Notes under the pieces: model-generated
Databases searched by the model: none
The model's input: only the letters and a program-made list of their open reading frames with translations
Told to the model about the DNA's origin: nothing
Translations under genes and position numbers: made by a program
Part shown: positions 3,012 through 23,674 of the stretch, piece after piece
How the letters are laid out: each line of letters opens with the position of its first letter
How positions within the stretch are numbered: position 1 is the first letter of the stretch
Assembly: GCA_003222815.1 (NCBI GenBank)
Contig: QHXC01000424.1
Span: forward strand, 1 to 37,893
Reading direction: 5' to 3'
Origin: Acidobacteriota bacterium
GTDB lineage: Bacteria; Acidobacteriota; Terriglobia; 20CM-2-55-15
Length of the DNA stretch: 37,893 nucleotides

Positions 3012-4008
3012 AATTCTCCGCGACTGCTTTCATCAAAGCCTCCCCGTGGAACCGTCCGTTCTCGATAAATATTTCGCCGTTTAGACGGCCGCCGATCACG
3101 GATCCTGCCAGATATACACCCTCAACATTTGTCTCGAATGTTTGAGGATCGTATTGTGGCCGAAGTGTGTCCGGATCGTATTGCACGCCGAGCTGATCGA
3201 AGAACTTCGTCGACGGATGGTAACCGGTCAACGCGAATACATGCTGCGCGGGAATCTCGCTCGTTGTGCCGTTTTGAGCGGTCTTTACATGGTCTCTGGT
3301 GATCTGGAGGACCTTCGCGTTGAGGTGAGGTATTATCTCGCCCTTCTTGAACCGGTTCTCGATATCGGGCCGGATCCAGTACTTCACAGTCTGTCCCAAG
3401 GCCGCACCGCGATGAACTAGTGAAACTCTCGCCCCGCCTCGGAACAAGTCGAGCGCTGTTTCGACGGCCGAGTTTTTCCCGCCAATGACGACCACATCCC
3501 GATTAAAGAAAGGATGAGCTTCCGTATAGTAATGCGATACGTGCGGCAGGTCTTCGCCTGGAATACCCATCAAGTTTGGGTTGTCGTAGTATCCGATCGA
3601 AATCACGACGTTCCGGGCATCATATGCCGATTCGGTTGTATGGATCCGGAAAACGTGGGATTCGAGCTGTTCAATTCGAACCACTTCTTCGTACTGATGA
3701 ACATCGAGTTGGTAGGCCGCGACGACTTTCCGGTAATACTTGAGCCCTTCGTTTCGCGTGGGTTTTTCGCGGTCGGAAACCAGCGGCATACCGCCGATCT
3801 CGAGCAGTTCCGGCGTCGTAAAGAAGATCATCTGAGTAGGGAAGTGCAAAATGGAGTTCGTGATGCAACCCTTTTCCAGCACGGTGTATTGCAACTGATG
3901 CTTTTTCGCTTCAATCGCGCACGCCAGCCCCGACGGGCCCGCGCCTACGATGACAACGTCGAAGGGGGATCTTGAGTTTTGGGTTTCGGATTGTGGATTT
4001 GAAGTCAC
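2992..4008 (-). CDS. ypdA: YpdA-like FAD/NAD(P) disulfide reductase
   Basis: 338 residues from GTG 4008. That GTG overlaps the dapF stop as GTGA, which decides the start; a longer frame to 4212 merely runs through dapF. The N-terminal Rossmann motif VVIVGAGPSGLACAIEA binds FAD, a second motif VVVIGGKNSAVETALDLF (mid-protein) binds NAD(P)H, and a C-terminal GVYLAGSVIGG closes the FAD site. This matches the YpdA family (putative bacillithiol-disulfide reductase), which lacks the CxxC of thioredoxin reductase; none is seen here. Bacillithiol recycling is therefore a family-based inference. The gene is last in the minus-strand run and ends in the shared inverted repeat. Confidence 0.85.
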   Translation of the reverse strand: MTSNPQSETQNSRSPFDVVIVGAGPSGLACAIEAKKHQLQYTVLEKGCITNSILHFPTQMIFFTTPELLEIGGMPLVSDREKPTRNEGLKYYRKVVAAYQLDVHQYEEVVRIEQLESHVFRIHTTESAYDARNVVISIGYYDNPNLMGIPGEDLPHVSHYYTEAHPFFNRDVVVIGGKNSAVETALDLFRGGARVSLVHRGAALGQTVKYWIRPDIENRFKKGEIIPHLNAKVLQITRDHVKTAQNGTTSEIPAQHVFALTGYHPSTKFFDQLGVQYDPDTLRPQYDPQTFETNVEGVYLAGSVIGGRLNGEIFIENGRFHGEALMKAVAENSEKMGT

Positions 4009-4717
4009 AGTTCCAAGTAATTTCCTTCGGCAATGATGTTGGCCGTCGCTGTCAGCTTCAATCGTCCGTTCTGCAGCCACTCTACGGACAGCTTGCCGGC
4101 CTTCGTGTGCACCGTGACTTGCCGGCCTGTCTTTCCATTCAAGATGGAAGCCACGGTGGCGCCGCAGGAACCGGTGCCCGATGCATAAGTTACGCCGACT
4201 CCGCGTTCCCAAAACGACACTTCAATCTCAAAAGCGAGCAATGCGGATTGCCCGTCGAACATGCCGTGATCGTTACCAATTCGCCGTCGGCGGGCAACGG
4301 ATAATTCACAACTTGTTTCATTGCAACCGGCGGCAGAAAAGGAATGTCTTCCGGCGCGAGGCCCGGTACGCCCATGTCCGCCTCGTATTGCTGCCCGGCA
4401 CGGCGCAGCATGTATGCACCTGAAATCGTTTCGAGCCGGATTTCTTCTCCAGGCGAGCGTCCCGATTCGATCAGGTAGGCCGCCGCGCAGCGCAGGCCGT
4501 TTCCTGAACATTCGGCCTCGCTGCCATCCCGATTAAAAATTCTGATCCTGAAAGCATCGTTCTCTGGAGTCCAAAGGATAAGCCCATCGGCCCCGACCCC
4601 GAAATTCCGTTGGCAGATCCGTCTGGCGAATTCGGCTTTGTCCGCAGGAATGTGTGGAGTTTGTTCAACGAGAATGAAATCGTTTCCAAGCGCGTGAGTC
4701 TTGACGAACGGAATCAT
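4005..4717 (-). CDS. dapF: diaminopimelate epimerase, frame broken with an internal gap
   Basis: Converts LL- to meso-diaminopimelate for lysine and peptidoglycan. The N-terminal half runs from ATG 4717 (MIPFVKTHALGNDF) through Cys70 in AECSGNGLRC to STGNPHC. The C-terminal half continues in another frame with SFWERGVG and ends at 4005. Between GNPHC and WERG the family normally has about 46 residues; here only about 10 remain, so about 36 codons are missing and the frame changes near 4225-4250. In addition, the second catalytic site reads ASGTGSCG where ACGTGAC is expected, putting Ser in place of the second active-site Cys. The start overlaps the mgtC stop (ATGA), and the stop overlaps the ypdA start. 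As written the product would be inactive; assembly error at the gap is likely. Confidence 0.85.
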
Positions 4718-8618: not shown

Positions 8619-9573
8619 CTAATACCGTTCGAAGCGGGAATTGTTGACTATCTGTTCGACAATCGAATACGGATCTTGCTGGCGCTCCGCGATCTGCTCC
8701 ACAACTTTGTTCAGCTCTCCGTTCGGAAAAACTTTTTGAACGGCCGTATCCATCAGTCGCTCTTCAAGCAGCGTCAACAGACGCTGCCTTGCCGCGGCCT
8801 GCTTCTTTTCAGTCCGGAGAGCCGACTTCTCGAAAAACTGTTGGCATCGATCAATACTTTCAACAAGCGTATCGATGCCTTCACCCTGTGTGGCGATAGT
8901 TTTGACCACCGGTGGAAACCACCCATCGCTGCGATTCGACAGCGAAAGCATAGCCAGAACGGCTCGCTCCATTTTTTCGGTGCCGGGCCGGTCGCACTTA
9001 TTGATGACGAAGATGTCGCCGATTTCCATGATGCCGGCTTTGAGCGCCTGGACGTCGTCGCCCATGCCCGGGACCAGGACGACCACAGAAACATCAGCCA
9101 ATTTGACGATTTCGATTTCGTCCTGGCCGACCCCCTACGGTCTCCACAATGATCGGATTTCTTCCCGCGGCATCAAGCACGGTGACCACATCCGCAGTCG
9201 TTCGTGCCAGGCCTCCAAGGTGTCCGCGAGTCGCCATGCTGCGGATGTAGATGCCGGGATCGACTCCCAATGTCTGCATTCGAATACGATCGCCGAGAAT
9301 GGCGCCACCGGTGAAGGGGCTGCTCGGATCGACCGCGACAATCCCCAGCAATTTGCCGTTGCGCCGGTAAGCCACCGCAAGCCGATCGACCATCGAGCTT
9401 TTGCCCGATCCGGGACTACCAGTTATGCCGATGACGTCCGAACGCCCGGTATGGGGAAACAATTGCCGCAAGAGTTCAATGCTGTCAGCCGAGCGATTTT
9501 CCACCCGAGTGATCATGCGCGCCAACGCACGGGTGTCGCCTTTGAAGAAATCCTCTAAAAGACCCTTGTCCAT
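8619..9573 (-). CDS. meaB: MeaB/ArgK G3E GTPase, one-base frameshift
   Basis: Chaperone GTPase that protects and reloads B12-dependent methylmalonyl-CoA mutase. It starts at ATG 9573 (MDKGLLEDFF) with AGGG about 7 nt upstream. The N-terminal frame shows the P-loop GITGSPGSGKSS, VDPSSPFTGGAILGDR and MATRGHLGGLA. After IVETVG the frame breaks. Removing one base from the C5 run at about 9131-9135 restores VETVGVGQDEIEIVKLADVSVVV and the second frame continues through the guanine motif NKCDRPG to the stop at 8619. A homopolymer miscall explains it fully. Adjacent to the epimerase and acyl-CoA dehydrogenase genes. Confidence 0.92.
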
Positions 9574-9588
9574 TATTACCCTGAGAAG

Positions 9589-9634
9589 AGCCACGAATTA
9601 CGCCAAACTAGCGTAATTGGCGTACTTCGCGGCT
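9589..9634. repeat. palindromic AGCCRCGAA-TACGCCAA repeat
   Basis: The sequence begins AGCCACGAATTACGCCAA and ends TTGGCGTACTTCGCGGCT, forming arms of about 18 nt with two mismatches around a short centre (ACTAGCGTAA). It fills the gap between the acyl-CoA dehydrogenase stop (9642) and the meaB start (9573) and would form a hairpin in the shared transcript. It belongs with the similar elements at 7255 and 28087. Confidence 0.65.
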
Positions 9635-11415: not shown

Positions 11416-12396
11416 TCACCTGAAATGCTGCCAACCTTTCGGATGGAGGACGGATTCCTGGGCGCCGTCGATCAGGAAGACTTGGTTCTCGAGCCCAGAA
11501 TCGATGATTTCGCCGACACGCGTCACGGGGATGCCCTCAACCGTTGGGGGAAGATCCGTCGCGATGATGATCAGTTCGTACTCTTCACCGCCGTGGAGGA
11601 CGTGGCGCTCCTCGACTCCCGGCGCTGCCGGAAGGCGATCCTTGTAGATTCGCGCTGAGACCCGGGACTCTTCGGCGATATGAGTGAGGTCCGTGGAGAG
11701 ACCATCGCTGATGTCGATCATGGCATGGGCTCGGTCTGCAACGGCCAGGCCCGGGCGATGCCGCGGTTCAGGGTAGAGATGACGCCGGATTGCGGGATCG
11801 TCGACCTTGCCGGCCTTCAGCCGCTCCAGGCCGAGCGCGGAAGATCCGAGCGTGCCGGTGACATAGATGGCATCGCCGGGTTTCGCTCCGGAGCGGCGGA
11901 CGGATTGACCGGAACGCACGCGTCCGATTATGGAAACATCGGCGAAAATACGATCTGACGACGAGGAGTCGCCGCCAAGCAGCGAAACCTCAAAGTCCCT
12001 GCAAGCCCGGCTGACACCGTCGAGGAAGCCTTCGATCCAGGAGAAATCGAGATCGCCAGGGGCGGCCAGGGAGATCAGGAAGTGCATTGGGATTCCGCCC
12101 ATGGCCCCAACATCGCTGACGTTGGCGGCGATGGATTTGTAGCCAACCGAGTCGGGAGGATGCAGATATCGGATGAAGTGCGTATTTTCGGCGAGAAGGT
12201 CGGAACAGAAGACAGCGGAATAGCCGGGAGGAAGATCGAAGACTGCGGCGTCGTCACCGATACCGACATGTACCTCGCCAGCCCTCACCCGGCGCGCCGC
12301 CAGTGCGCCGCCCTCTTCCGGGGTGAGAGCGCTTAGGGAAAACCTCTCCCGGATTGTGCGTATCAGAGCGCCTTCACCGATATCGCGGAGGTTCAC
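11416..12396 (-). CDS. thiL: thiamine-monophosphate kinase
   Basis: 326 residues. Phosphorylates thiamine monophosphate to the cofactor thiamine pyrophosphate. ThiL/AIRS-fold motifs occur in order: [15 protein letters not shown] (nucleotide and Mg2+), [69 protein letters not shown] and [10 protein letters not shown] near the end. The start GTG 12396 overlaps the lon stop as GTGA, which fixes the start and suggests coupling. Other thiamine genes are not in the window. Confidence 0.95.
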
Positions 12397-14725
12397 ACGA
12401 TGGCCTCTGCGCTTTTGCGAAGACGGCGGGGACTGCGCACCATCTTCGCGGGTTCGTTTTCGAGCAGGGCAGCCTTGAACACGCTCTTCACGTCATCGAC
12501 GAAGACGAACTTCATTTCCTTGCGGATGGTTTCGTTCACGTCTTCGAGATCGCGCTTATTCAGTGATGGCAGGACCACCGTGTCGATCTTTGCTCGTCGC
12601 GCCGCGAGGACTTTCTCCTTAATCCCTCCGACCGGCAACACCTCACCACGGAGCGTGATTTCACCGGTCATCGCAATCTTGCGATGGACGGCTTTTCCGG
12701 TCAGCAGCGACAGCATCGCCGTTGCCAGGGTGACGCCGGCCGACGGTCCGTCTTTCGGAATCGAACCTTCGGGTACGTGAATATGGATGTCGTGTTTCGC
12801 AAAGAAATCCTCGTTGATGCCAAACTCCTTCGCGTGCGAGCGCGCATAGCTCAGCGCAGCCTGCGCAGATTCCTTCATTACATCGCCTAGCTGACCGGTC
12901 AACATCAAAGCGCCCTTGCCCTTCATTGCAGTTGCTTCAATGAAGAGTATGTCTCCGCCAACCGGTGTCCAGGCCAGGCCCGTGGCTACGCCGACCTGGT
13001 CACGCTTCAGCAGTTCGTCTTGAAAGACTTTTGGACGCCCCAGAAATTGATCGAGATTGTCCGTGTGAATTTTCCGAACTTTCTTTTCGCCGCTTGCGAC
13101 CTGCCTGGCCACTTTGCGGCACACCGACGCGATTTCACGTTCCAGGTTTCGAAGCCCCGCTTCCTGTGTGTAGAGATTGATAATCGCCCGGATACCTTCA
13201 TCGGAGAACTGAATCTGGTCCTTCTTCAGCCCATGCTCTTCGGTTTGCTTCGGGATGAGATGCCGCTTTGCAATTTCGACCTTCTCTTCTTCGGTGTATC
13301 CCGACAGCGAGATGATCTCCATGCGGTCACGAAATGCCGGCTGTATCGGGTCGAGCATATTACCCGTCGTGATGAACATCACGTTCGACAGATCGAAGGG
13401 CACACCCAGGTAGTTATCCCGGAATGCGAAGTTCTGTTCCGGATCGAGCACTTCGAGGAGCGCCGAAGACGGATCTCCGCGAAAGTCGGCGCCGATCTTA
13501 TCGACTTCGTCCATCATAAATACCGGATTATTCGTTCCTGCCTGGTGAATGTTCTGAATGATGCGGCCTGGCATCGCTCCGACGTAGGTGCGCCGATGGC
13601 CGCGGATCTCGGCCTCGTCGTGTACGCCACCCAGGCTCATGCGAACAAACTTCCGGCCCAGCGCCCGCGCGATCGATTTGCCCAACGACGTTTTCCCCAC
13701 GCCCGGCGGCCCCACAAAGCAAAGGATCGGCCCGCGCGTGTTCTTCTTCAGTTTCCGCACGGCGAGGTGTTCGATGATCCGTTCCTTGACCTTTTCAAGA
13801 CCGTAATGATCCTGATCCAAGATGGTCTGTGCTTTTTTAAGATCGAGATTAGCCTTCCAAGTTGCCGCTCCGCCTCTTCGGTAACTTCCTGCGGCATTTT
13901 CGCCTTTTTAATTTTCTTTCGATATTGATCGATTTCTTCCTGGACTTCGTTGCCTTCGCCAAGTTCCTGCTGAATGGCTTTCATCTGCTGGCGCAAGTAG
14001 AACTCGCGCTGGCTCTTGTCCATCTCGCCACGAGCCTGAGTATTGATATCGTTCTGGATCTCAAGGACCTCGATTTCCTTCGCCATCAGGGCATGAACAC
14101 GGCGCAGCCGCTCGACGGGATCGATGAGTTCAAGCACTTCCTGCGCCTTATCGACTTTCAAATCGAGATTCGATGCGATCAGATCCGATAGCCGGGCCGG
14201 ATCGTCCAGGTTGGAAGCGATCGCTACCAGATCCGGAGAGATGTTTTTTCCCAAAGAAACCATCTTCTCGAGTGAGGACTTCGCATTGCGGATCATGGCC
14301 TCGAGCTCCACAGAATCCGGAGTGACCTGCGGTTCAGTCTTCGGTTGTACCTTCGCCGTCAGGTAAGGCTTGGATTCGTCGTAATACTCCACATGAGCGC
14401 GCGAAAACCCCTGAACGAGAATACGGACGCGTCCATCGGGCAGTTTGAGCATCCGCATAATGACGGAGACCGTGCCGAATTCATGGAGGTCTTCGGCCTT
14501 GGGGTCATCCACATTGGCCGTCTTCTGTGAAACCAGCAGGATCATTCGGTTTTCGGACAACGCTTGATCCACCGCCTTTGCAGACCGCTCACGGTTTACA
14601 AACAACGGTACGATCATGTAGGGGAACACAACCATGTCCGGCAGCGGTAGCACCGGAAGGACGTCCGGAATCGCAACCTGCTGCTGTTCGGGAGCTTGTT
14701 CGGCTTTGACGAGTTCCATGCTCAT
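12393..14725 (-). CDS. lon: ATP-dependent Lon protease, frame broken with an internal gap
   Basis: Degrades damaged and regulatory proteins in the cytosol. N-terminal LON substrate domain and coiled coil run from ATG 14725 to [10 protein letters not shown]. The second frame holds [22 protein letters not shown], Walker [14 protein letters not shown], Walker [12 protein letters not shown], and the Ser/Lys peptidase with [12 protein letters not shown] (Ser) and [11 protein letters not shown] (Lys). Between RQLGRL and NLDLKK the family has about 33 residues (the YxDWxxxLPW block), absent here. The frames meet near 13850-13860. The ATPase and peptidase half is complete. It lies 54 nt after hsp20 and overlaps thiL. 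An internal deletion in the assembly is likelier than a truncated Lon. Confidence 0.93.
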
Positions 14726-15150: not shown

Positions 15151-15609
15151 CTACTCCCGCATTTTCAGGAGATCCTTGAGCTCACTCATGAATTCCTGGA
15201 CGTCCTTGAAGTCCAGGTAGACGGAAGCAAATCGAACATAGGCCACTTTGTCGAGGTTTTTCAGTTCGTTCATGATCATCTCACCCAGCACCCGAGTGGA
15301 AACCTCGCGCTCGCTCGACTCCTGGACCATCGTTTCGGCTTTGTCGGCGACAGCCTCGAGCTGAATCATCGAGACCGGACGCTTCTCGCACGCTTTCAGC
15401 AGCCCAGCGAGAACCTTTTGCCGATCGAACCGTTCCCGGCGGCCGTCCTTCTTAACGACCATATACGGGATCTCATCAATGCGCTCGTAACTGGTAAATC
15501 GCCGGTGGCACGCCAGACACTGCCGACGGCGGCGAATGGCTTCACCTTCCTTGCTCTCGCGCGAATCGACCACCTTGTCATGGAGATGGCCGCAGAAGGG
15601 ACACTTCAT
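15151..15609 (-). CDS. nrdR: transcriptional repressor NrdR
   Basis: 152 residues from ATG 15609 (MKCPFCG), the usual length. The N-terminal zinc ribbon has Cys3, Cys6, Cys31 and Cys34 with the [13 protein letters not shown] patch that contacts DNA. The ATP-cone domain follows at about residues 49-139. NrdR senses ATP/dATP and represses ribonucleotide reductase operons at tandem NrdR boxes; I did not find a box near this gene. A longer frame to 15723 is rejected because it precedes the invariant MKCPFC start. It is the first gene of a tight nrdR-hsp20-lon-thiL cluster. Confidence 0.96.
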
Positions 15610-15727
15610 ATTATTTACGGAATTCAGGCTTCGGGTTTCGGATTTTACGTGGTGTCCGGGTCCCCACCTTCGGTCCCCCCGGTAGCGGCGGCCGTCTGGA
15701 TGGCGTTTTGGCCGGTCTCCCACGCGG

Positions 15728-16705
15728 TCAGTCTGCCACAGGCGCCGTCCTGAGATCTTTCAAGGATAGTCCTTGAGAGATCATATATAAGCCTCCCGCC
15801 ACCACTGTCGGAACGTAACTCGCAACCCACGCGACCAAAGAGGTGGCGATTGCTTTCTCGGGCGGAATCAGGAAAAAGGTAGTCATGCAAAAGACCCACC
15901 CCGCCTGGAATCCCCCGCCGATGCCGGGAATCTGTGCAATAGAACCAATGGCCGAGCCCACCATCACAAGAGTTGCTGCCTGAATCGAAAACTGAAAATT
16001 CATTCCCAGCATCATGAACCAGAAAGAAAGACTGATGACGATCCAGAGCAAAAGCGAGTGTGCGATGGCGAGTCCGAAACTCGACCCGCGGTCAAGAAAC
16101 GAGAGACCCGCTGAGAAGTTTTTCATCACCGACGCGATCTTGGCCAACCGGACGTAACGTACAATTCGATGGATATTGGCGCGGAAAAAAAACAGAAAAA
16201 TCATCGCGGCCACCGAACCAATCAGCATGACCCATGAAGCATCTTTCATGAGCTTCACCGTTCGGTCCGCCGCGGCAGGAGGCTTCACCAGTAGAAGCGA
16301 CCAGCCGAAAAACATAATGATCATGAAGGTATCCAAAAACCGTTCGACGACTATCGTTGCAACAGAGGCCGTCAGCGGGGTCTGCTCCCGCCGCGCGACC
16401 CAGAGCGGCCGGATGACCTCGCCAGCCCGCCCAAGCACGAAGATTGCAGAGAAACCCACTAGGTTTGCGCTGATGAGTGGTTTAATGCGAATGGGTTTGA
16501 CCGGGTCCAAGAGGACCTGCCACCGCACGGCGCGGCATACGTAAGTCAGGAATGTCGCCGCTATGGAGGCCATGAGCCAACTGATTTGGATATTCCACAG
16601 GCTCGAGTAGAACAGCGACCAATCAAAGTCCGAACCCCACAGTCGATAGGCTACGATGAAGGCAATAACAGTCAAGATCAATAAAAACAATGACTTCCGG
16701 TTCAT
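15728..16705 (-). CDS. flippase-like (UPF0104/lysylphosphatidylglycerol synthase TM) membrane protein
   Basis: 325 residues with about eight hydrophobic segments and no soluble domain. It shows the family layout: an N-terminal TM, then [12 protein letters not shown] (about residues 60-72), [20 protein letters not shown] (about residues 80-100), [13 protein letters not shown] and a late [16 protein letters not shown]. Members include the MprF flippase half and AglD-type proteins that move or process lipid-linked substrates across the membrane. The lipid here is unknown. It begins the minus-strand run and diverges from the ECF sigma operon; a 118-nt gap follows it before nrdR. Confidence 0.87.
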
Positions 16706-16740: not shown

Positions 16741-16769
16741 TGAAACTTTTCTTCTCGCCACTTCGTTGA
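16741..16769 (+). promoter_or_regulatory. ECF-sigma-type autoregulated promoter
   Basis: TGAAAC at 16741-16746 and CGTTGA at 16764-16769 are spaced by exactly 17 nt. This matches the general RpoE-like ECF consensus (GAAC/TGAAAC, 16-17 nt, CGT). It lies 52 nt before the TTG start of the sigma gene and on the same strand, so the sigma factor very probably transcribes its own operon. A divergent promoter for the flippase gene must overlap this 115-nt region but was not identified. Confidence 0.72.
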
Positions 16770-16820
16770 TTTATAAGGTACTGAGACGCGATGTAGCGGA
16801 AGCGGACGGAGCCAGATAGG

Positions 16821-17390
16821 TTGCAGACGACCGATGCGGAGCTGGTGAAAGGCTGCCTGGCCGGCGACCACGCGGCCTGGGAAACTATAGTTCGCCAATT
16901 TCATCAGCGGATCTACAATCTGGCGTATCGCTTTACGGGAAGATTTGACGAGGCCGAGGATCTGACTCAGGACATCTTCCTGAAAGTCTATCGAACTCTC
17001 ACGTCTTACCGGCCCGAATCGGGCGCGCTCGTGACTTGGATGGTCCGGGTCGGCCGCAATCATATCATCGACCAATACCGGAAATTCAAGATCGAACGTT
17101 CCCAGACCGGCTCCATCGAGGTGGAGTACGAAAAGGCTGAAGAAAATCCGGCGCGGTACGCGAGCCCGGCTCAGGCACTCGAGCAACTCGAACTCTCCGA
17201 ACGAGTGCATCGCGCTCTGCTCCGGGTTTCAGAAGATCTTCGCGAGGCGGTGGTCCTGAGAGATCTTGAGGAATTCACGTATGAGGAGATTGCGGAGATG
17301 TTGAAGCTGCCGATGGGTACCGTAAAATCCAGGATCAATCGAGGCCGTGCGGAATTGGCGAGACTGTTAAAAAGGGAGAGCCGCGGATGA
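16821..17390 (+). CDS. ECF RNA polymerase sigma factor (RpoE-like)
   Basis: 189 residues with TTG start 16821 and GGAG 9 nt upstream. Sigma region 2 (about residues 24-92) includes DEAEDLTQDIFLKVYR and GALVTWMVRVGRNHIID, binding core RNA polymerase and the -10 element. Region 4 (about residues 130-185) holds SEDLREAVVLRDLEEFTYEEIAEML and GTVKSRINRGRAEL, the -35-binding helix-turn-helix. It lacks region 1.1 and 3, as ECF factors do. It is directly followed (16 nt) by its zinc-finger anti-sigma factor. The trigger is probably envelope stress, inferred from the downstream genes. Confidence 0.96.
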   Translation: MQTTDAELVKGCLAGDHAAWETIVRQFHQRIYNLAYRFTGRFDEAEDLTQDIFLKVYRTLTSYRPESGALVTWMVRVGRNHIIDQYRKFKIERSQTGSIEVEYEKAEENPARYASPAQALEQLELSERVHRALLRVSEDLREAVVLRDLEEFTYEEIAEMLKLPMGTVKSRINRGRAELARLLKRESRG

Positions 17391-17406
17391 CGCGGATGAC
17401 GGGGAC

Positions 17407-17910
17407 ATGACCTGCGCATATTGCGAAGAACAAATGTCGGATTACTTGGAAAATGGGCTCGGCGCGGCCGAGCGAGGCGCCGTGGAGGTGCACCTTCGGG
17501 CGTGTAATGCCTGCAACGAGCTGCTTGCGGGAATGACGGAAGTGCTCGAATGGGGTAGAACGTTTCCCGTCTACGAGCCCCCGGCGTGGCTGGCGGCGCG
17601 GATTCTTGCGAATACGCCTCGTGTTGCCCGCGAGACCTGGGTAGACACATTCGTTTCGATCGGCCGTTGGATCATCGAGCCGCGCACGGCGATGGCCATA
17701 TTCACAGCAACACTTGTCCTTGGCTGGATGGGAAGTCTCGCCGGCATCTCTCCCAACTGGGCCACGATTGTTCGGGATCCGGCGGCAATTTACGACGGAG
17801 CGCAAGGCCTCGTGAACCGCGCCTACGACGAGGCGGTACGGGCCTATTACCGGTCCCCACTTGTAACTGAGATTCAATCTCGAATCGAAGAGCTCAGGGA
17901 GATTTCCTGA
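17407..17910 (+). CDS. zinc-finger anti-sigma factor (zf-HC2, membrane-anchored)
   Basis: 167 residues from ATG 17407. The N-terminal anti-sigma zinc finger is TCAYCEEQM ... VHLRACNAC, with His29, Cys33 and Cys36 in the HxxxCxxC arrangement and Cys3/Cys6 upstream. A single TM segment at about residues 95-115 (TAMAIFTATLVLGWMG) puts the C-terminal region outside. The N-terminus would hold the sigma factor at the membrane until a signal releases it. Its TGA overlaps the ATG of the next gene. Confidence 0.9.
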   Translation: MTCAYCEEQMSDYLENGLGAAERGAVEVHLRACNACNELLAGMTEVLEWGRTFPVYEPPAWLAARILANTPRVARETWVDTFVSIGRWIIEPRTAMAIFTATLVLGWMGSLAGISPNWATIVRDPAAIYDGAQGLVNRAYDEAVRAYYRSPLVTEIQSRIEELREIS

Positions 17911-18539
17911 TGAATTGTGCGTACCACGCTGAAGTTCCCAACGTCGCGTTTTGCATCCGCTGCGGCCGTGCACTCTGTACGGAGTGTGTCCACAATGTGC
18001 GTGGAAGCGTGTACTGCGAAAGTTGTCTGGCGGAGTTGGTGGGCGGAAAACCAACGCCTTCGACTCCGCCTCCCAAAGGGGTTTCGGAGTCTATTGCCGG
18101 AACGAATCCGGGCGCGGCATTCGCGCTGGGACTCATACCGGGCGTCGGCGCCATTTACAATGGCGAATACGTAAAAGCAGCGGTCCACGTGCTGATCTTT
18201 GGAACACTGATTTCGCTCGGGGACATCACACGCGCCGGCCAGCCTCTGATTGGACTGCTGACTGCGGCGTTCTATTGCTACATGCCGTTTGAGGCATATT
18301 ACACGGCCAAGAAACGAAAGATGCGCGCCGAGGGCATCGAATTGGAAACCCCAATCGACAGGCTTCAACAACAATTCGGCGAAGCCAAGGATCGAGAGCT
18401 CTGGGGCGGCATTGCACTGGTGGTTCTAGGTGGCCTGTTCCTTCTGGGCAATCTCGAAGTGCTGGACCTGGAGCGAGTCGCAAGGCTATGGCCGGTACTG
18501 CTCGTTATCGCCGGACTCTGGCTTTTGAAGAAACATTAG
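17910..18539 (+). CDS. B-box zinc-finger membrane protein with DUF5668 tail
   Basis: 209 residues; ATG 17910 overlaps the anti-sigma TGA. Residues 1-40 form a B-box type zinc finger (Cys3, His6, Cys15, Cys18, Cys23, Cys26, Cys36, Cys39). A Pro/Thr linker follows, then hydrophobic segments at about residues 68-95 and 105-130 with GLIPGVGAIYNGEY, a basic loop (TAKKRKMR), and a C-terminal DUF5668-like pair (GGIALVVLGGLFLLGNL, RLWPVLLVIAGLWLL). DUF5668 is the membrane part of LiaI/LiaF. A role in sensing or relaying envelope stress is likely, but the zinc finger partner is unknown. Confidence 0.82.
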   Translation: MNCAYHAEVPNVAFCIRCGRALCTECVHNVRGSVYCESCLAELVGGKPTPSTPPPKGVSESIAGTNPGAAFALGLIPGVGAIYNGEYVKAAVHVLIFGTLISLGDITRAGQPLIGLLTAAFYCYMPFEAYYTAKKRKMRAEGIELETPIDRLQQQFGEAKDRELWGGIALVVLGGLFLLGNLEVLDLERVARLWPVLLVIAGLWLLKKH

Positions 18540-18554
18540 GAGAAGACAACTTAG

Positions 18555-18740
18555 ATGTTAGGGCCGGTTTTGCTTATTGTGCTTGGCTTCTTGTTCCTGT
18601 TGAACAACCTGTACCCGAACGTGTTCCGGTTCGGGAAGATGTGGCCGGTGATTCTAATCGTCATTGGCGTAGCTAAAGTCCTGGACTATTTGCGTAAGGA
18701 CCGCGGCAAATCCGCTGCTGGAAAGGAGGACAACACATGA
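18555..18740 (+). CDS. DUF5668 mini membrane protein
   Basis: 61 residues: MLGPVLLIVLGFLFLLNNL, a short polar turn, MWPVILIVIGVAKVL, then a charged tail ending in KEDNT. Two TM segments in the LiaI-LiaF-TM (DUF5668) pattern, the same unit found in the genes on either side. It follows the B-box gene by 15 nt and its TGA overlaps the next ATG by ATGA, so it is co-translated. No independent function is known. Confidence 0.85.
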   Translation: MLGPVLLIVLGFLFLLNNLYPNVFRFGKMWPVILIVIGVAKVLDYLRKDRGKSAAGKEDNT

Positions 18741-20116
18741 GTATTCGTCGAAGTGCGGGAGGCATTTTCTGGGGACTCATCCTGATTGCTGTCGGTGGCC
18801 TGTTTTTAGCGAGGAACCTTGGATATTCCATCCCGATTTGGAGAGGCATCGCGCGCTACTGGCCCCTTTTGCTGATTGTGTGGGGCGGCCTGAAGCTTGT
18901 GGACTACTTCCGCTACCGGCGGTCCGGTGAAGATCGCCCTTTGTTTTCCGGAGGCGAGGTCGCGCTGCTGATCATGGTGATCCTGGCGGGTACGGCTGTG
19001 ACCACCGCTGCGAACATCAGCCCGAATTTCGGAAATATCGGAAATATTTTCGAGATAGGAGATCTCGACCTCTGGGACATTACGGGCAACAACTTTGAAT
19101 ATTCCGAACACCAGGAAGCCGACGTTCCATCTGGATCGACCATCGAGATTCTCAACATGTTTGGCAACGTCGACGTGCAGCCGTCCGACCGGGATCGCGT
19201 CATCCTCGACGTAAAAAAAACCGTTCGAGCATCTGACAAAGATGAAGCCGACCGGCGATCGAAGGACTTCACGTTTTCAATTACGAATGAGGGTTCGAAA
19301 TACCGTATTGCTTCCAACCGGGATCAGCCGGGCAGACAGCGGCGGTACTTCAAAAGCTCGATGACCATTCAAGTTCCCAAGCAGTCGCTGCTTCAGATCG
19401 ACAATCGCCAGGGAAGAGTGACTGTTCAAAACTTGCTGGGACGGCAAAATATCGTGAACCGATTTGGCCCCGTCGATGTTCGCCGCATAACAGGTGTGCT
19501 CGAAGTGGAGAATCGGAACGGCGCTGTGACTGTCGAAGAGGTGACAGAATCCGTGACGATTAACAACAGCTATTCCAGCACGAGCGCAAGAAATATTGGC
19601 GGGAACCTGGAAATCCGCAACCGCAATGGCTCGGTCAACGTGTCCGGCGTCCAAGGTACGGCGACGATAGCAAATTCATACGGCCCGATCACCGTCGAAA
19701 ATGTTCAGCGTGACGTGTCGATCACGGGCCGCAACAATTCCGTTGAGGTGGAGCGCGTTGAGGGCGGCGTGACGGTGGAAGCGTCCTACCAGAATGTGAA
19801 CGTACGCGATGCGAAGGGTTCTGTCACGGTGAAGAACCGAAATGGCGACGTGGTGATTGGATTCGCGAACCCCCCCCAGAAAGATATTTCCGTCTCCACG
19901 CAGTACAGCAATGTCACGCTGGAGCTTCCGTCAATGGCTTCTTTCAGCATCGACGCAAAGACCCGGTACGGTTCGATTGATTCGGAGTTCGACGGACTCA
20001 ACAACGACGTGTCGTCGAATCGTGAAAGGTCTTTGAGAGGCCGGCTGGGGAAGGACGGTCCTCAAATCCATATCGATACCCGCAATGGAGACATTCGCCT
20101 CGAGAAGAAAGGATAA
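18737..20116 (+). CDS. DUF5668-DUF4097 envelope protein (LiaF/LiaG-like)
   Basis: 459 residues. N-terminal DUF5668 module (about residues 8-24 and 40-55), another TM at about residues 74-95, then a long beta-rich domain of short repeats with alternating strands: EILNMFGNVDVQ, IDNRQGRVTVQNL, NRFGPVDVRRI, ENRNGAVTVEEV, NNSYSSTSARNI, RNRNGSVNVSGV, ANSYGPITVENV. This is the DUF4097 right-handed beta-helix fold. The order DUF5668 then DUF4097 mirrors LiaF plus LiaG of Bacillus cell-wall-stress operons. Co-transcription with an ECF sigma factor supports an envelope-stress role; ligand unknown. Confidence 0.85.
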   Translation: MSIRRSAGGIFWGLILIAVGGLFLARNLGYSIPIWRGIARYWPLLLIVWGGLKLVDYFRYRRSGEDRPLFSGGEVALLIMVILAGTAVTTAANISPNFGNIGNIFEIGDLDLWDITGNNFEYSEHQEADVPSGSTIEILNMFGNVDVQPSDRDRVILDVKKTVRASDKDEADRRSKDFTFSITNEGSKYRIASNRDQPGRQRRYFKSSMTIQVPKQSLLQIDNRQGRVTVQNLLGRQNIVNRFGPVDVRRITGVLEVENRNGAVTVEEVTESVTINNSYSSTSARNIGGNLEIRNRNGSVNVSGVQGTATIANSYGPITVENVQRDVSITGRNNSVEVERVEGGVTVEASYQNVNVRDAKGSVTVKNRNGDVVIGFANPPQKDISVSTQYSNVTLELPSMASFSIDAKTRYGSIDSEFDGLNNDVSSNRERSLRGRLGKDGPQIHIDTRNGDIRLEKKG

Positions 20117-20121
20117 CCAGC

Positions 20122-20517
20122 ATGTACTGCCGGCAGTGTGGGAACGAAGTCGAACAACACGCGAGATTCTGCAGCAAATGTGGTTGCGAGCTTGCGTCGG
20201 CCCAGGTCCAGCAGAAACCGCAGCATGACATGAACATGCACATCAATATCCTGGGATGGCTCTTTATCAGTGCGCCGTCCTGGTAGGCATAGTCGGCATG
20301 GTGATGATTTTTGCAGGCCAGCTCATCGGACACCTTCCAATCGTGTGGCCGGCCGAATTTCCATTCGGTGTGGTGCACCTTGCCGGATCGCTTGCCGTGA
20401 TTGCGGGTTTAGCGACGCTCGCCACTGCCGCGGGCGTCGCTTTACGCCTTCTGGGTCCTGTTCTCGGAAGAGGGCCGGGAACACTATCAGACCCTCGCGG
20501 CACGAAGCGCTGGCTGA
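20122..20517 (+). CDS. zinc-ribbon membrane protein, frame broken
   Basis: Begins at ATG 20122 with a zinc ribbon (Cys3, Cys6, Cys17, Cys20) and MHINILGWLFIS, then stops early in its own frame at 20284. The continuing hydrophobic protein (VGIVGMVMIFAGQLIG, AGSLAVIAGLATLATAAG) is in another frame, and the tail SLYAFWVLFSEEGREHYQT, ending at TGA 20515-20517, is back in the first frame. One missing base near 20275 and a missing block of about 30 residues (the GLLxRxxWARxLAxVLGxxNL segment of the family) near 20425-20440 explain this. Family: zinc-ribbon proteins of unknown function common in acidobacteria. Fifth member of the ECF operon; 18 nt before aroK. Confidence 0.72.
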
Positions 20518-20535: not shown

Positions 20536-21039
20536 ATGCAACACACCCGCATTTACCTGATCGGCTTCATGGGCGCTGGAAAGACGACAGTCGGCCGGTC
20601 TCTCTCGAACAAGCTCGGTTGGGTATTCATCGATCTTGACGAGGAAATCGAGCGCCGTGAAGGCCGGCCGATTGCTAAAATCTTTCAAGACCACGGCGAG
20701 CCCCATTTCAGAAAAATCGAGCAGCGCTGTTTAGAAGACGTGTCTGGCTTAGAACGAGCTGTGATTGCGCTTGGCGGCGGTACATTCATCAATCCCCAAA
20801 ACCGTGCTTTGGCGATGAAAACAGGTCTGACCGTATGGCTGAAAGTCTCCTTCGCAAAAGTCTGGCATCGTGTGAAAATTGACGGGACGCGACCGAAATT
20901 CGGGGATAAAGACCAGGTGGAACGGCTTTATCAGACTCGAGAACCCTATTACGCTCTCGCCAAGGTTCACGTTTCAACAGACACAAGCACTCCTGAATGG
21001 GTAGCGAATGAGATTATGGGAGTCATTGAGAAGTCATGA
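20536..21039 (+). CDS. aroK: shikimate kinase
   Basis: 167 residues. Phosphorylates shikimate in aromatic amino-acid and folate synthesis. Walker A GFMGAGKTTVG (residues 10-20), the shikimate-binding FIDLDEEIE (Asp33, Asp35) and Arg59 in HFRKIEQ, the GGGTF loop (Gly80-82) and the lid with DGTRPKF are all present. It follows the zinc-ribbon gene by 18 nt and overlaps the next ATG (ATGA), so it shares the stress operon or a promoter inside it; a functional reason for this placement is not evident. Confidence 0.94.
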   Translation: MQHTRIYLIGFMGAGKTTVGRSLSNKLGWVFIDLDEEIERREGRPIAKIFQDHGEPHFRKIEQRCLEDVSGLERAVIALGGGTFINPQNRALAMKTGLTVWLKVSFAKVWHRVKIDGTRPKFGDKDQVERLYQTREPYYALAKVHVSTDTSTPEWVANEIMGVIEKS

Positions 21040-22636: not shown

Positions 22637-23674
22637 ATGATAGAGAACATTGAACAACAGATCATCGAAGCGAAAGAATGCTTGGGATGCATGCATCAAG
22701 GCCTGATTGTGACTTCAGCTGACGGCACTATTCTGGAAACCAGTCCCGCAGCAGAACGGATACTCGAAGCCCCCTCGATGAGTCTAAAAGGCAGACAAGT
22801 CCGCGAGTTTTACCTGATGGCGGACACATATGAGGAGCTCATCCGCCAGACCGATATCGCAACCCGCAGCCTTAACAGATCCGTGATCGTGCTTGCGGGA
22901 GAAAAGAAACGAAAAATCGTGAATATGTCGATGCAGCGTGTAGCGGATCGCGGGGACGTCCGATACGTGCACGTCTTTCAGGAATGCGCCGATCTACGGA
23001 CAATGGAACAGCGCCTGCTTCAGTCCGAGCGCTTGGCCACCATTGGCCGATTCGCTTCGCAAATTGCGCATGAAATCCGGAACCCGCTCAGCTCCATTTC
23101 GCTCAACGTGGAGTTGCTTGAAGACGAACTCAAGGAGTCAAACGATGAAGCGCGTAGTCTGATCCGCTCGGTGCTGAAGGAGTTGGATCGGTTGAACGAT
23201 ATTGTCAGCGAGTACTTGCAGTTTTCGCGATTTCCAAAGCCGAACCTCAAGCGTGGACACGTGGACGGCGTGATCGTGGAATTAGTGCAGACCTTCAAAG
23301 CGCCGCCGTCAGTGCGAATTGAGGTTGATCTGATGGACTCCAGCCCCGAGGTGTGGCTTGATGAGCGCTTGCTGCGTCAGGTGCTGGAAAATCTGGTACG
23401 CAATGGGGCGGAAGCTATCGATGGCGATGGCGTGGTCCGTATCGAGACAGACGTGGTGGACCGTTTCTTCGTCATCCGCGTGAAGGACACAGGTACTGGC
23501 ATTGCGCCTGAAATTCAGCCAAAACTGTTTGAACCTTTTTTCACAACCAAAGCTCATGGAACCGGGCTTGGCCTGGCCACGTCGCAACAGATTCTGTTTG
23601 AACACAACGGGCATCTTGTAGTGGAAAGCCAGCTAGGCAAAGGGGCCACATTCACCTTACTTTTACCGTTATGA
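22637..23674 (+). CDS. soluble PAS-domain histidine kinase (NtrB-like)
   Basis: 345 residues and no TM segment, so cytoplasmic. PAS domain at about residues 12-115 (TSADGTILETSPAAERIL). HisKA at about residues 128-200 with phospho-acceptor His145 in QIAHEIRNPLSS. HATPase at about residues 245-345: N box ENLVRNGAEAI, G1 DTGTGIA, F box FEPFFTTK, G2 GTGLGL. This is the NtrB/ZraS-type arrangement, which usually pairs with a sigma-54-dependent response regulator; none is adjacent, so it is an orphan here. Preceded by 256 nt with no gene and a weak ribosome site. Confidence 0.92.
   Translation: MIENIEQQIIEAKECLGCMHQGLIVTSADGTILETSPAAERILEAPSMSLKGRQVREFYLMADTYEELIRQTDIATRSLNRSVIVLAGEKKRKIVNMSMQRVADRGDVRYVHVFQECADLRTMEQRLLQSERLATIGRFASQIAHEIRNPLSSISLNVELLEDELKESNDEARSLIRSVLKELDRLNDIVSEYLQFSRFPKPNLKRGHVDGVIVELVQTFKAPPSVRIEVDLMDSSPEVWLDERLLRQVLENLVRNGAEAIDGDGVVRIETDVVDRFFVIRVKDTGTGIAPEIQPKLFEPFFTTKAHGTGLGLATSQQILFEHNGHLVVESQLGKGATFTLLLPL

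Follow-up and report, generated by a model that had tools for sequence, protein, structure and literature searches.

We analysed a 37,893-nucleotide stretch of DNA (hereafter the window; contig QHXC01000424.1 of assembly GCA_003222815.1) from a bacterium of the phylum Acidobacteriota, in which an operon places Lia- and Toastrack-type membrane proteins behind the gene pair of an extracytoplasmic function (ECF) sigma factor and its anti-sigma factor. We consider it probable (about 0.7) that this operon is one copy of a phylum-wide acidobacterial envelope-stress module that is autoregulated, independent of PspA and controlled by the ECF sigma factor. We regard it as a strong candidate for a response to envelope stress that has so far gone unstudied in Acidobacteriota. 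These bacteria are abundant in soils, and the operon offers a testable sigma factor, a target motif and a candidate protein complex. The source assembly is fragmented and of metagenome type (5.67 Mb in 732 contigs, 88% complete).

On the plus strand, positions 16741-20116 of the window carry, in this order, a promoter and the genes for the sigma factor, the anti-sigma factor, a B-box protein with a LiaI-LiaF-type transmembrane (TM) hairpin, a small LiaI-type protein and a Toastrack protein. An earlier reading of the letters without database searches (the sequence-only reading) had named this series, its fifth protein as DUF5668-DUF4097, and open reading frames (ORFs), Pfam matches and hydropathy bore it out. 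It had also stated that overlaps link most of the genes. The junctions, counting that with a zinc-ribbon gene treated below, are all tight (+16, -1, +15, -4 and +5 nucleotides from 5' to 3'), but only two of the five are overlaps, anti-sigma/B-box (1 nucleotide) and small LiaI/Toastrack (4 nucleotides), and the remaining three are gaps of 16, 15 and 5 nucleotides. The LiaI-LiaF-TM domains and the Toastrack domain of the Lia system were both recognised (Pfam; Foldseek to the structure 4qrk). No kinase or response regulator was found among the operon ORFs, so that nothing in the operon corresponds to LiaSR.

The sigma factor gene (16821..17390, +) starts with TTG, and its orthologues within the family have the same kind of start. 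Its product matched Sigma70_r2 (5.6e-19), r4_2 (8.7e-16) and TIGR02937 (110 bits); regions 2 and 4 were thus matched and region 3 was absent, as in ECF sigma factors. The next gene (17407..17910, +) encodes a predicted membrane-bound zinc-binding anti-sigma (ZAS) factor with a zf-HC2 match (1.1e-6), one TM segment at about residues 96-114 according to hydropathy and a short C-terminal tail. In its zinc motif, H29-x3-C33-x2-C36, each of H29, C33 and C36 is kept in 40 of 41 homologues. With this motif and a predicted TM segment encoded by the adjacent gene, the two genes fit a pair of ECF sigma factor and class I (ZAS) anti-sigma factor. Two other loci (L243 and L262) contain another sigma/anti-sigma pair and another Toastrack gene no more than a few kb from the main operon.

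Conservation of the gene order across acidobacteria was a check proposed together with the sequence-only reading, which the lack of such an order would have refuted; the order proved to extend well past the genus. The ECF sigma gene adjoins the B-box gene in all of 40 same-class regions, and in nearly all of them the genes for the anti-sigma factor, the small LiaI protein and the Toastrack protein are present too, ordered as in the window. The whole order is also found in most of another 40 regions, of which 38 come from other classes, with the small LiaI gene sometimes undetected. In a named-genome set of 80 loci, drawn from another collection and partly from the same genomes, the loci with enough flank had the sigma gene upstream (76/76) and the Toastrack gene downstream (73/73) without exception. 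A profile of the B-box protein matched 275 of 337 near-complete sampled Acidobacteriota genomes, weak matches included, and the best 80 named matches were all acidobacterial. Two genes divergent from the sigma operon (window 15151-16705, minus strand) accompany it in many Acidobacteriota and are often present in the 40 same-class regions. They encode an LPG_synthase_TM (MprF-flippase-like) membrane protein (15728..16705; Pfam PF03706, 6.4e-30) and NrdR (15151..15723; Pfam), the latter serving as a synteny marker.

Ahead of the sigma gene, the predicted ECF promoter TGAAAC-N17-CGTTGA is indeed present at 16741..16769 (+), as TGAAAC(TTTTCTTCTCGCCACTT)CGTTGA. In the genus and its sister genus the site takes the form GAAACTTTTCTTC-N9-CGTT and is the sole site common to all six genomes searched; four other matches to this form each occurred in a single genome, ahead of no shared gene. 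Across the class and then the phylum, the consensus was GGAACTTT-N14-CGTT, and regions were scored by their matches out of 12 to it, with a threshold of at least 11/12. Upstream regions of the sigma gene reached the threshold in 21 of 43 cases within the class and in 28 of 34 outside it, the latter being the cleaner test because the consensus was derived from class sequences. As a control, 1343 windows were drawn at random from these loci; 3 reached it, and 0.03 were expected per shuffle set. The spacing was 14 in 46 of the 49 scoring regions. By sequence conservation only, the site would be a GGAAC/CGT-type promoter of an autoregulated ECF sigma pair. The phylum-wide order and this promoter footprint support well the wiring suggested by the sequence-only reading, namely Lia modules behind a sigma/anti-sigma pair; the role in envelope stress is what we infer.

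The third gene of the operon (17910..18539, +) encodes a 209-amino-acid protein with an N-terminal B-box zinc finger, a TM2/DUF5683-like segment and a C-terminal LiaI-LiaF TM hairpin (Pfam). The B-box-type ligands are C3, H6, C15, C18, C23, C26, C36 and C39, and residues 1-40 have an AlphaFold confidence (pLDDT) of 92-96. The B-box match of the window's own protein (16.7 bits) is under the Pfam cut-off of 24.1, and zf-B_box was matched by 21 of 22 family members (best 1.6e-7). The best PDB matches of the family profile were TRIM28/TIF1-beta (E 0.0015-0.008). Foldseek gave no significant match for the protein, matches to LIM domains being non-significant. All eight ligands are kept in 127 of 151 sequences, and the finger is wholly absent in some distant homologues. 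In 15 sequences from at least two families, ligands 1, 2, 5 and 6 are gone while 3, 4, 7 and 8 are kept; the reverse pattern occurred in none of the 151. This pattern of joint loss favours two cross-braced zinc sites over sequential LIM pairing, and a LIM-type finger was rejected on this ground. It provides indirect evidence that the eight ligands form a cross-braced B-box, and thus evolutionary evidence for such a fold in a bacterial membrane protein. The sequence-only reading had singled out the B-box in a bacterial membrane protein as unusual; the family supports its presence, but the association of B-box with Toastrack/LiaI-TM proteins had already been noted (PMC11237479).

The small LiaI-type protein (18555..18740, +; 61 amino acids) has two TM segments and matched LiaI-LiaF-like_TM1 (1e-10). 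The Toastrack protein (18737..20116, +; 459 amino acids) combines a LiaI-LiaF hairpin and a third TM segment with a C-terminal Toastrack (DUF4097) domain (7.5e-16; 58.7 bits against a cut-off of 22.9), a right-handed beta-helix, and is the only DUF4097 match found in its own genome. Most homologues likewise have three N-terminal hydrophobic segments. The AlphaFold model shows three helices followed by the beta-helix (mean pLDDT 87.5), and its top PDB match in Foldseek was 4qrk (1.2e-7), a Toastrack example named in PMC11237479; a phmmer search against PDB sequences gave no significant match. The N-terminus and the loop after the second TM segment are positively charged. With three TM segments, the positive-inside rule therefore places the Toastrack domain outside the cytoplasm, and it is predicted to be periplasmic.

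The sequence-only reading had also proposed that a search for the promoter motif would define the regulon, which in its own genome returned only the sigma operon above chance. Here TGAAAC/CGTTGA with N15-19 gave 9 sites against 6 for the reversed control, i.e. chance level, the 17-nucleotide spacer occurred only at 16741-16769, and the strict motif yielded nothing above chance beyond the sigma operon. A survey of 247 Acidobacteriota genomes with the strict motif GGAACTTTT-N13-CGTT gave 48 forward and 34 reversed-control sites. Since these counts are only mildly above control, any claim of other targets rests on gene context. Among the fetched sites, 17 of 45 forward against 2 of 30 control sites lay outside ORFs of at least 100 amino acids (p = 0.003), and a substantial ORF start followed within 150 bp in 33 of 45 against 10 of 30. 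Seven forward sites in five lineages lie 22-49 bp upstream of DUF4097 genes (L272, L290, L291) or DUF2807 genes (L278, L279 and L306, from one genus, and L303); both families belong to the Toastrack superfamily (PMC11237479). Some Toastrack proteins encoded at these other motif sites have signal-peptide-like N-termini. A further forward site stands 49 bp upstream of a Band_7/SPFH gene, with a divergent Toastrack gene on its other side (L308, 741-2847). No control site lay ahead of a Toastrack or Band-7 gene. These contexts are suggestive, not proof, of Toastrack-type targets of the sigma motif in five lineages.

Forward sites also precede sigma genes, a zinc-ribbon gene (L275), a PadR gene (L288), an HlyD-type gene (L298), mreB (L282) and a conserved pair of small secreted proteins (L299-L301, L304). 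The members of this pair are encoded in tandem directly behind the strict motif in related genera and belong to no Pfam family (EKWINIHVEEADDDTKVDVRVPVALL...; L300 2102-3266, L301 2567-3731, L304 3278-4397). Sites ahead of an S4-domain gene in one genus (L294-L297) were discounted because of their distance of about 250 bp from it and their position inside ORFs.

PF04012 (PspA/LiaH) was matched in some other genomes, and no match was found in the genome of the window (88% complete) or in three genomes that carry the sigma operon and are 97-99% complete (G006, G013 and G031). The absence in the window's own genome is weak evidence because the assembly is incomplete; the three more complete genomes suggest that PspA is not required. 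In the mechanism that we propose, the anti-sigma factor would hold the sigma factor at the membrane at rest, and envelope damage would release it. The freed sigma factor would then transcribe its own operon, a positive autoregulation, and in some lineages might also drive additional genes of the Toastrack/DUF2807 and Band-7 types. At the inner membrane, the B-box/LiaI protein, the small LiaI protein and the Toastrack protein may assemble as a protective scaffold, as a feedback arm on the anti-sigma factor, or as both. A more ambitious form of this proposal, for which we see about even odds, is that a single ancestral operon provides the core PspA-independent envelope-stress response of the phylum, with sigma factor, anti-sigma factor, a complex in the membrane made up of B-box/LiaI proteins and periplasmic Toastrack proteins, and a conserved promoter, and that the sigma factor recruits Toastrack, DUF2807 and Band-7 genes lineage by lineage.

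Several points weigh against an autoregulated envelope-stress module of this kind. We infer both the envelope-stress signal and the effector function. In L243 and L262, no anti-sigma gene was detected between the main sigma gene and the B-box gene abutting it, and several loci (e.g. L084, L087, L088, L090, L095, L097 and L108) have no recognisable promoter. A one-mismatch motif search of the window's own genome gave 4 sites against 6 in the control and no second target, and the evidence for other targets is built on few sites. The Toastrack domain has also been argued to be intracellular (PMC11237479).

It is possible, if on balance improbable, that the membrane proteins act as the sensor instead of as effectors, the Toastrack domain and the LiaI/LiaF hairpins detecting damage and holding or releasing the anti-sigma factor. 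Consistent with this, they are stably linked in one operon with the sigma/anti-sigma pair and are retained with it almost one to one; the tail of the window's anti-sigma factor past its TM segment is only short, and the restraint of LiaS by LiaF is a precedent. However, co-transcription behind an autoregulated promoter suits effectors or feedback equally, and the secreted Toastrack/DUF2807 targets elsewhere resemble effectors. It is unlikely that the sigma factor governs something other than envelope stress, such as routine envelope growth, with the Lia/Toastrack proteins being structural: nrdR and LPG_synthase_TM, the genes linked to the operon, have general functions and single motif sites stand before mreB and an HlyD-type gene, but homologues of these domains are parts of the psp/lia stress systems (PMC11237479), and in two model bacteria ECF regulons composed in this way respond to stress (PMC8581546, PMC6767563). 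Chance clustering or a prediction artefact, i.e. a promoter look-alike and a spurious B-box, might be suspected from the sub-threshold B-box match and the chance-level loose motif in this genome, but is highly improbable, being refuted for the core by the phylum-wide synteny and promoter footprint; the 127 of 151 sequences with all eight ligands also speak against it.

Downstream of the putative envelope-stress module, the sequence-only reading had placed a zinc-ribbon protein as the last operon gene. The ORF starting at 20122 meets an in-frame stop after 54 codons (20284-20286), the frame changes near 20274 and an internal deletion removes about 37 residues of the intact orthologues; 20122..20517 (+) is therefore not an intact gene. 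The gene, for a zinc-ribbon membrane protein, is intact in the genomes of four relatives of the same family, and the comparison identifies it as an accessory gene at the level of the family that is broken in this assembly. Elsewhere in the window, the minus-strand genes for Lon (12393-14725), MeaB (8619-9594) and DapF (4005-4717) each fall into two overlapping ORFs whose frames differ, as seen from Pfam halves. Together with the broken zinc-ribbon gene, they suggest indel errors in a low-quality assembly. A histidine-kinase-like ORF (345 amino acids; 22637-23674, +) lies outside the operon, 2.5 kb downstream, separated from it by ORFs at 20536 (shikimate-kinase-like), 21036 and 21655. Rfam and tRNA scans of the window gave no matches.

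The association of Toastrack, LiaI-TM, B-box and a sigma factor is already known at the domain level, as one passage of PMC11237479 (section 27) brings together Toastrack, LiaI-LiaF-TM and B-box with a sigma factor linked to them through the operon. The Toastrack contexts described there (ZnR/DUF2089, LiaI-LiaF-TM, B-box, sigma) share the domain inventory of our operon, and a sigma-linked transcriptional output was proposed for them. Unlike our operon, that context is DUF2089-centred and has four genes; neither a promoter nor a regulon is given in the passage. Acidobacteria are unmentioned in the main text of that paper. In a search mostly outside subscription journals, we found no paper that describes this operon of Acidobacteriota, its conservation across the phylum or its promoter, and no experimental account of envelope-stress regulation in Acidobacteriota in a limited literature search.

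Among characterised systems, the sequence-only reading had contrasted the operon with the two-component control of Lia modules in Firmicutes. A sigma/anti-sigma pair does take that place here, but the contrast was overdrawn, since in Bacillus subtilis pspA-ydjGHI and two flotillin genes are under the ECF factor sigma-W (PMC8581546). As in the sigma-W regulon, an ECF sigma factor would stand over psp-type membrane-protection genes with a Band-7/SPFH partner (PMC8581546). In contrast, the psp genes of sigma-W lie outside the sigma operon and PspA is central, whereas the Lia/Toastrack genes are inside the sigma operon here. The sigma-E of Streptomyces coelicolor is regulated by a two-component system; unlike it, the acidobacterial operon has a ZAS anti-sigma gene beside the sigma gene. 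The two are alike in that sigma-E is an ECF factor with an envelope-stress regulon that includes pspA, mreB and an mprF homologue, and in that its promoter, GGGAAC...CGTC, is similar (PMC6767563). With liaIH-liaGFSR of B. subtilis, the operon shares the LiaI-LiaF TM hairpins and a LiaG/LiaF-type Toastrack domain; LiaSR and the PspA-type LiaH are absent, and an ECF sigma/anti-sigma pair is found instead. The phylum-wide operon suggests that ECF sigma factors, as well as two-component systems, can take control of Lia/Toastrack membrane modules.

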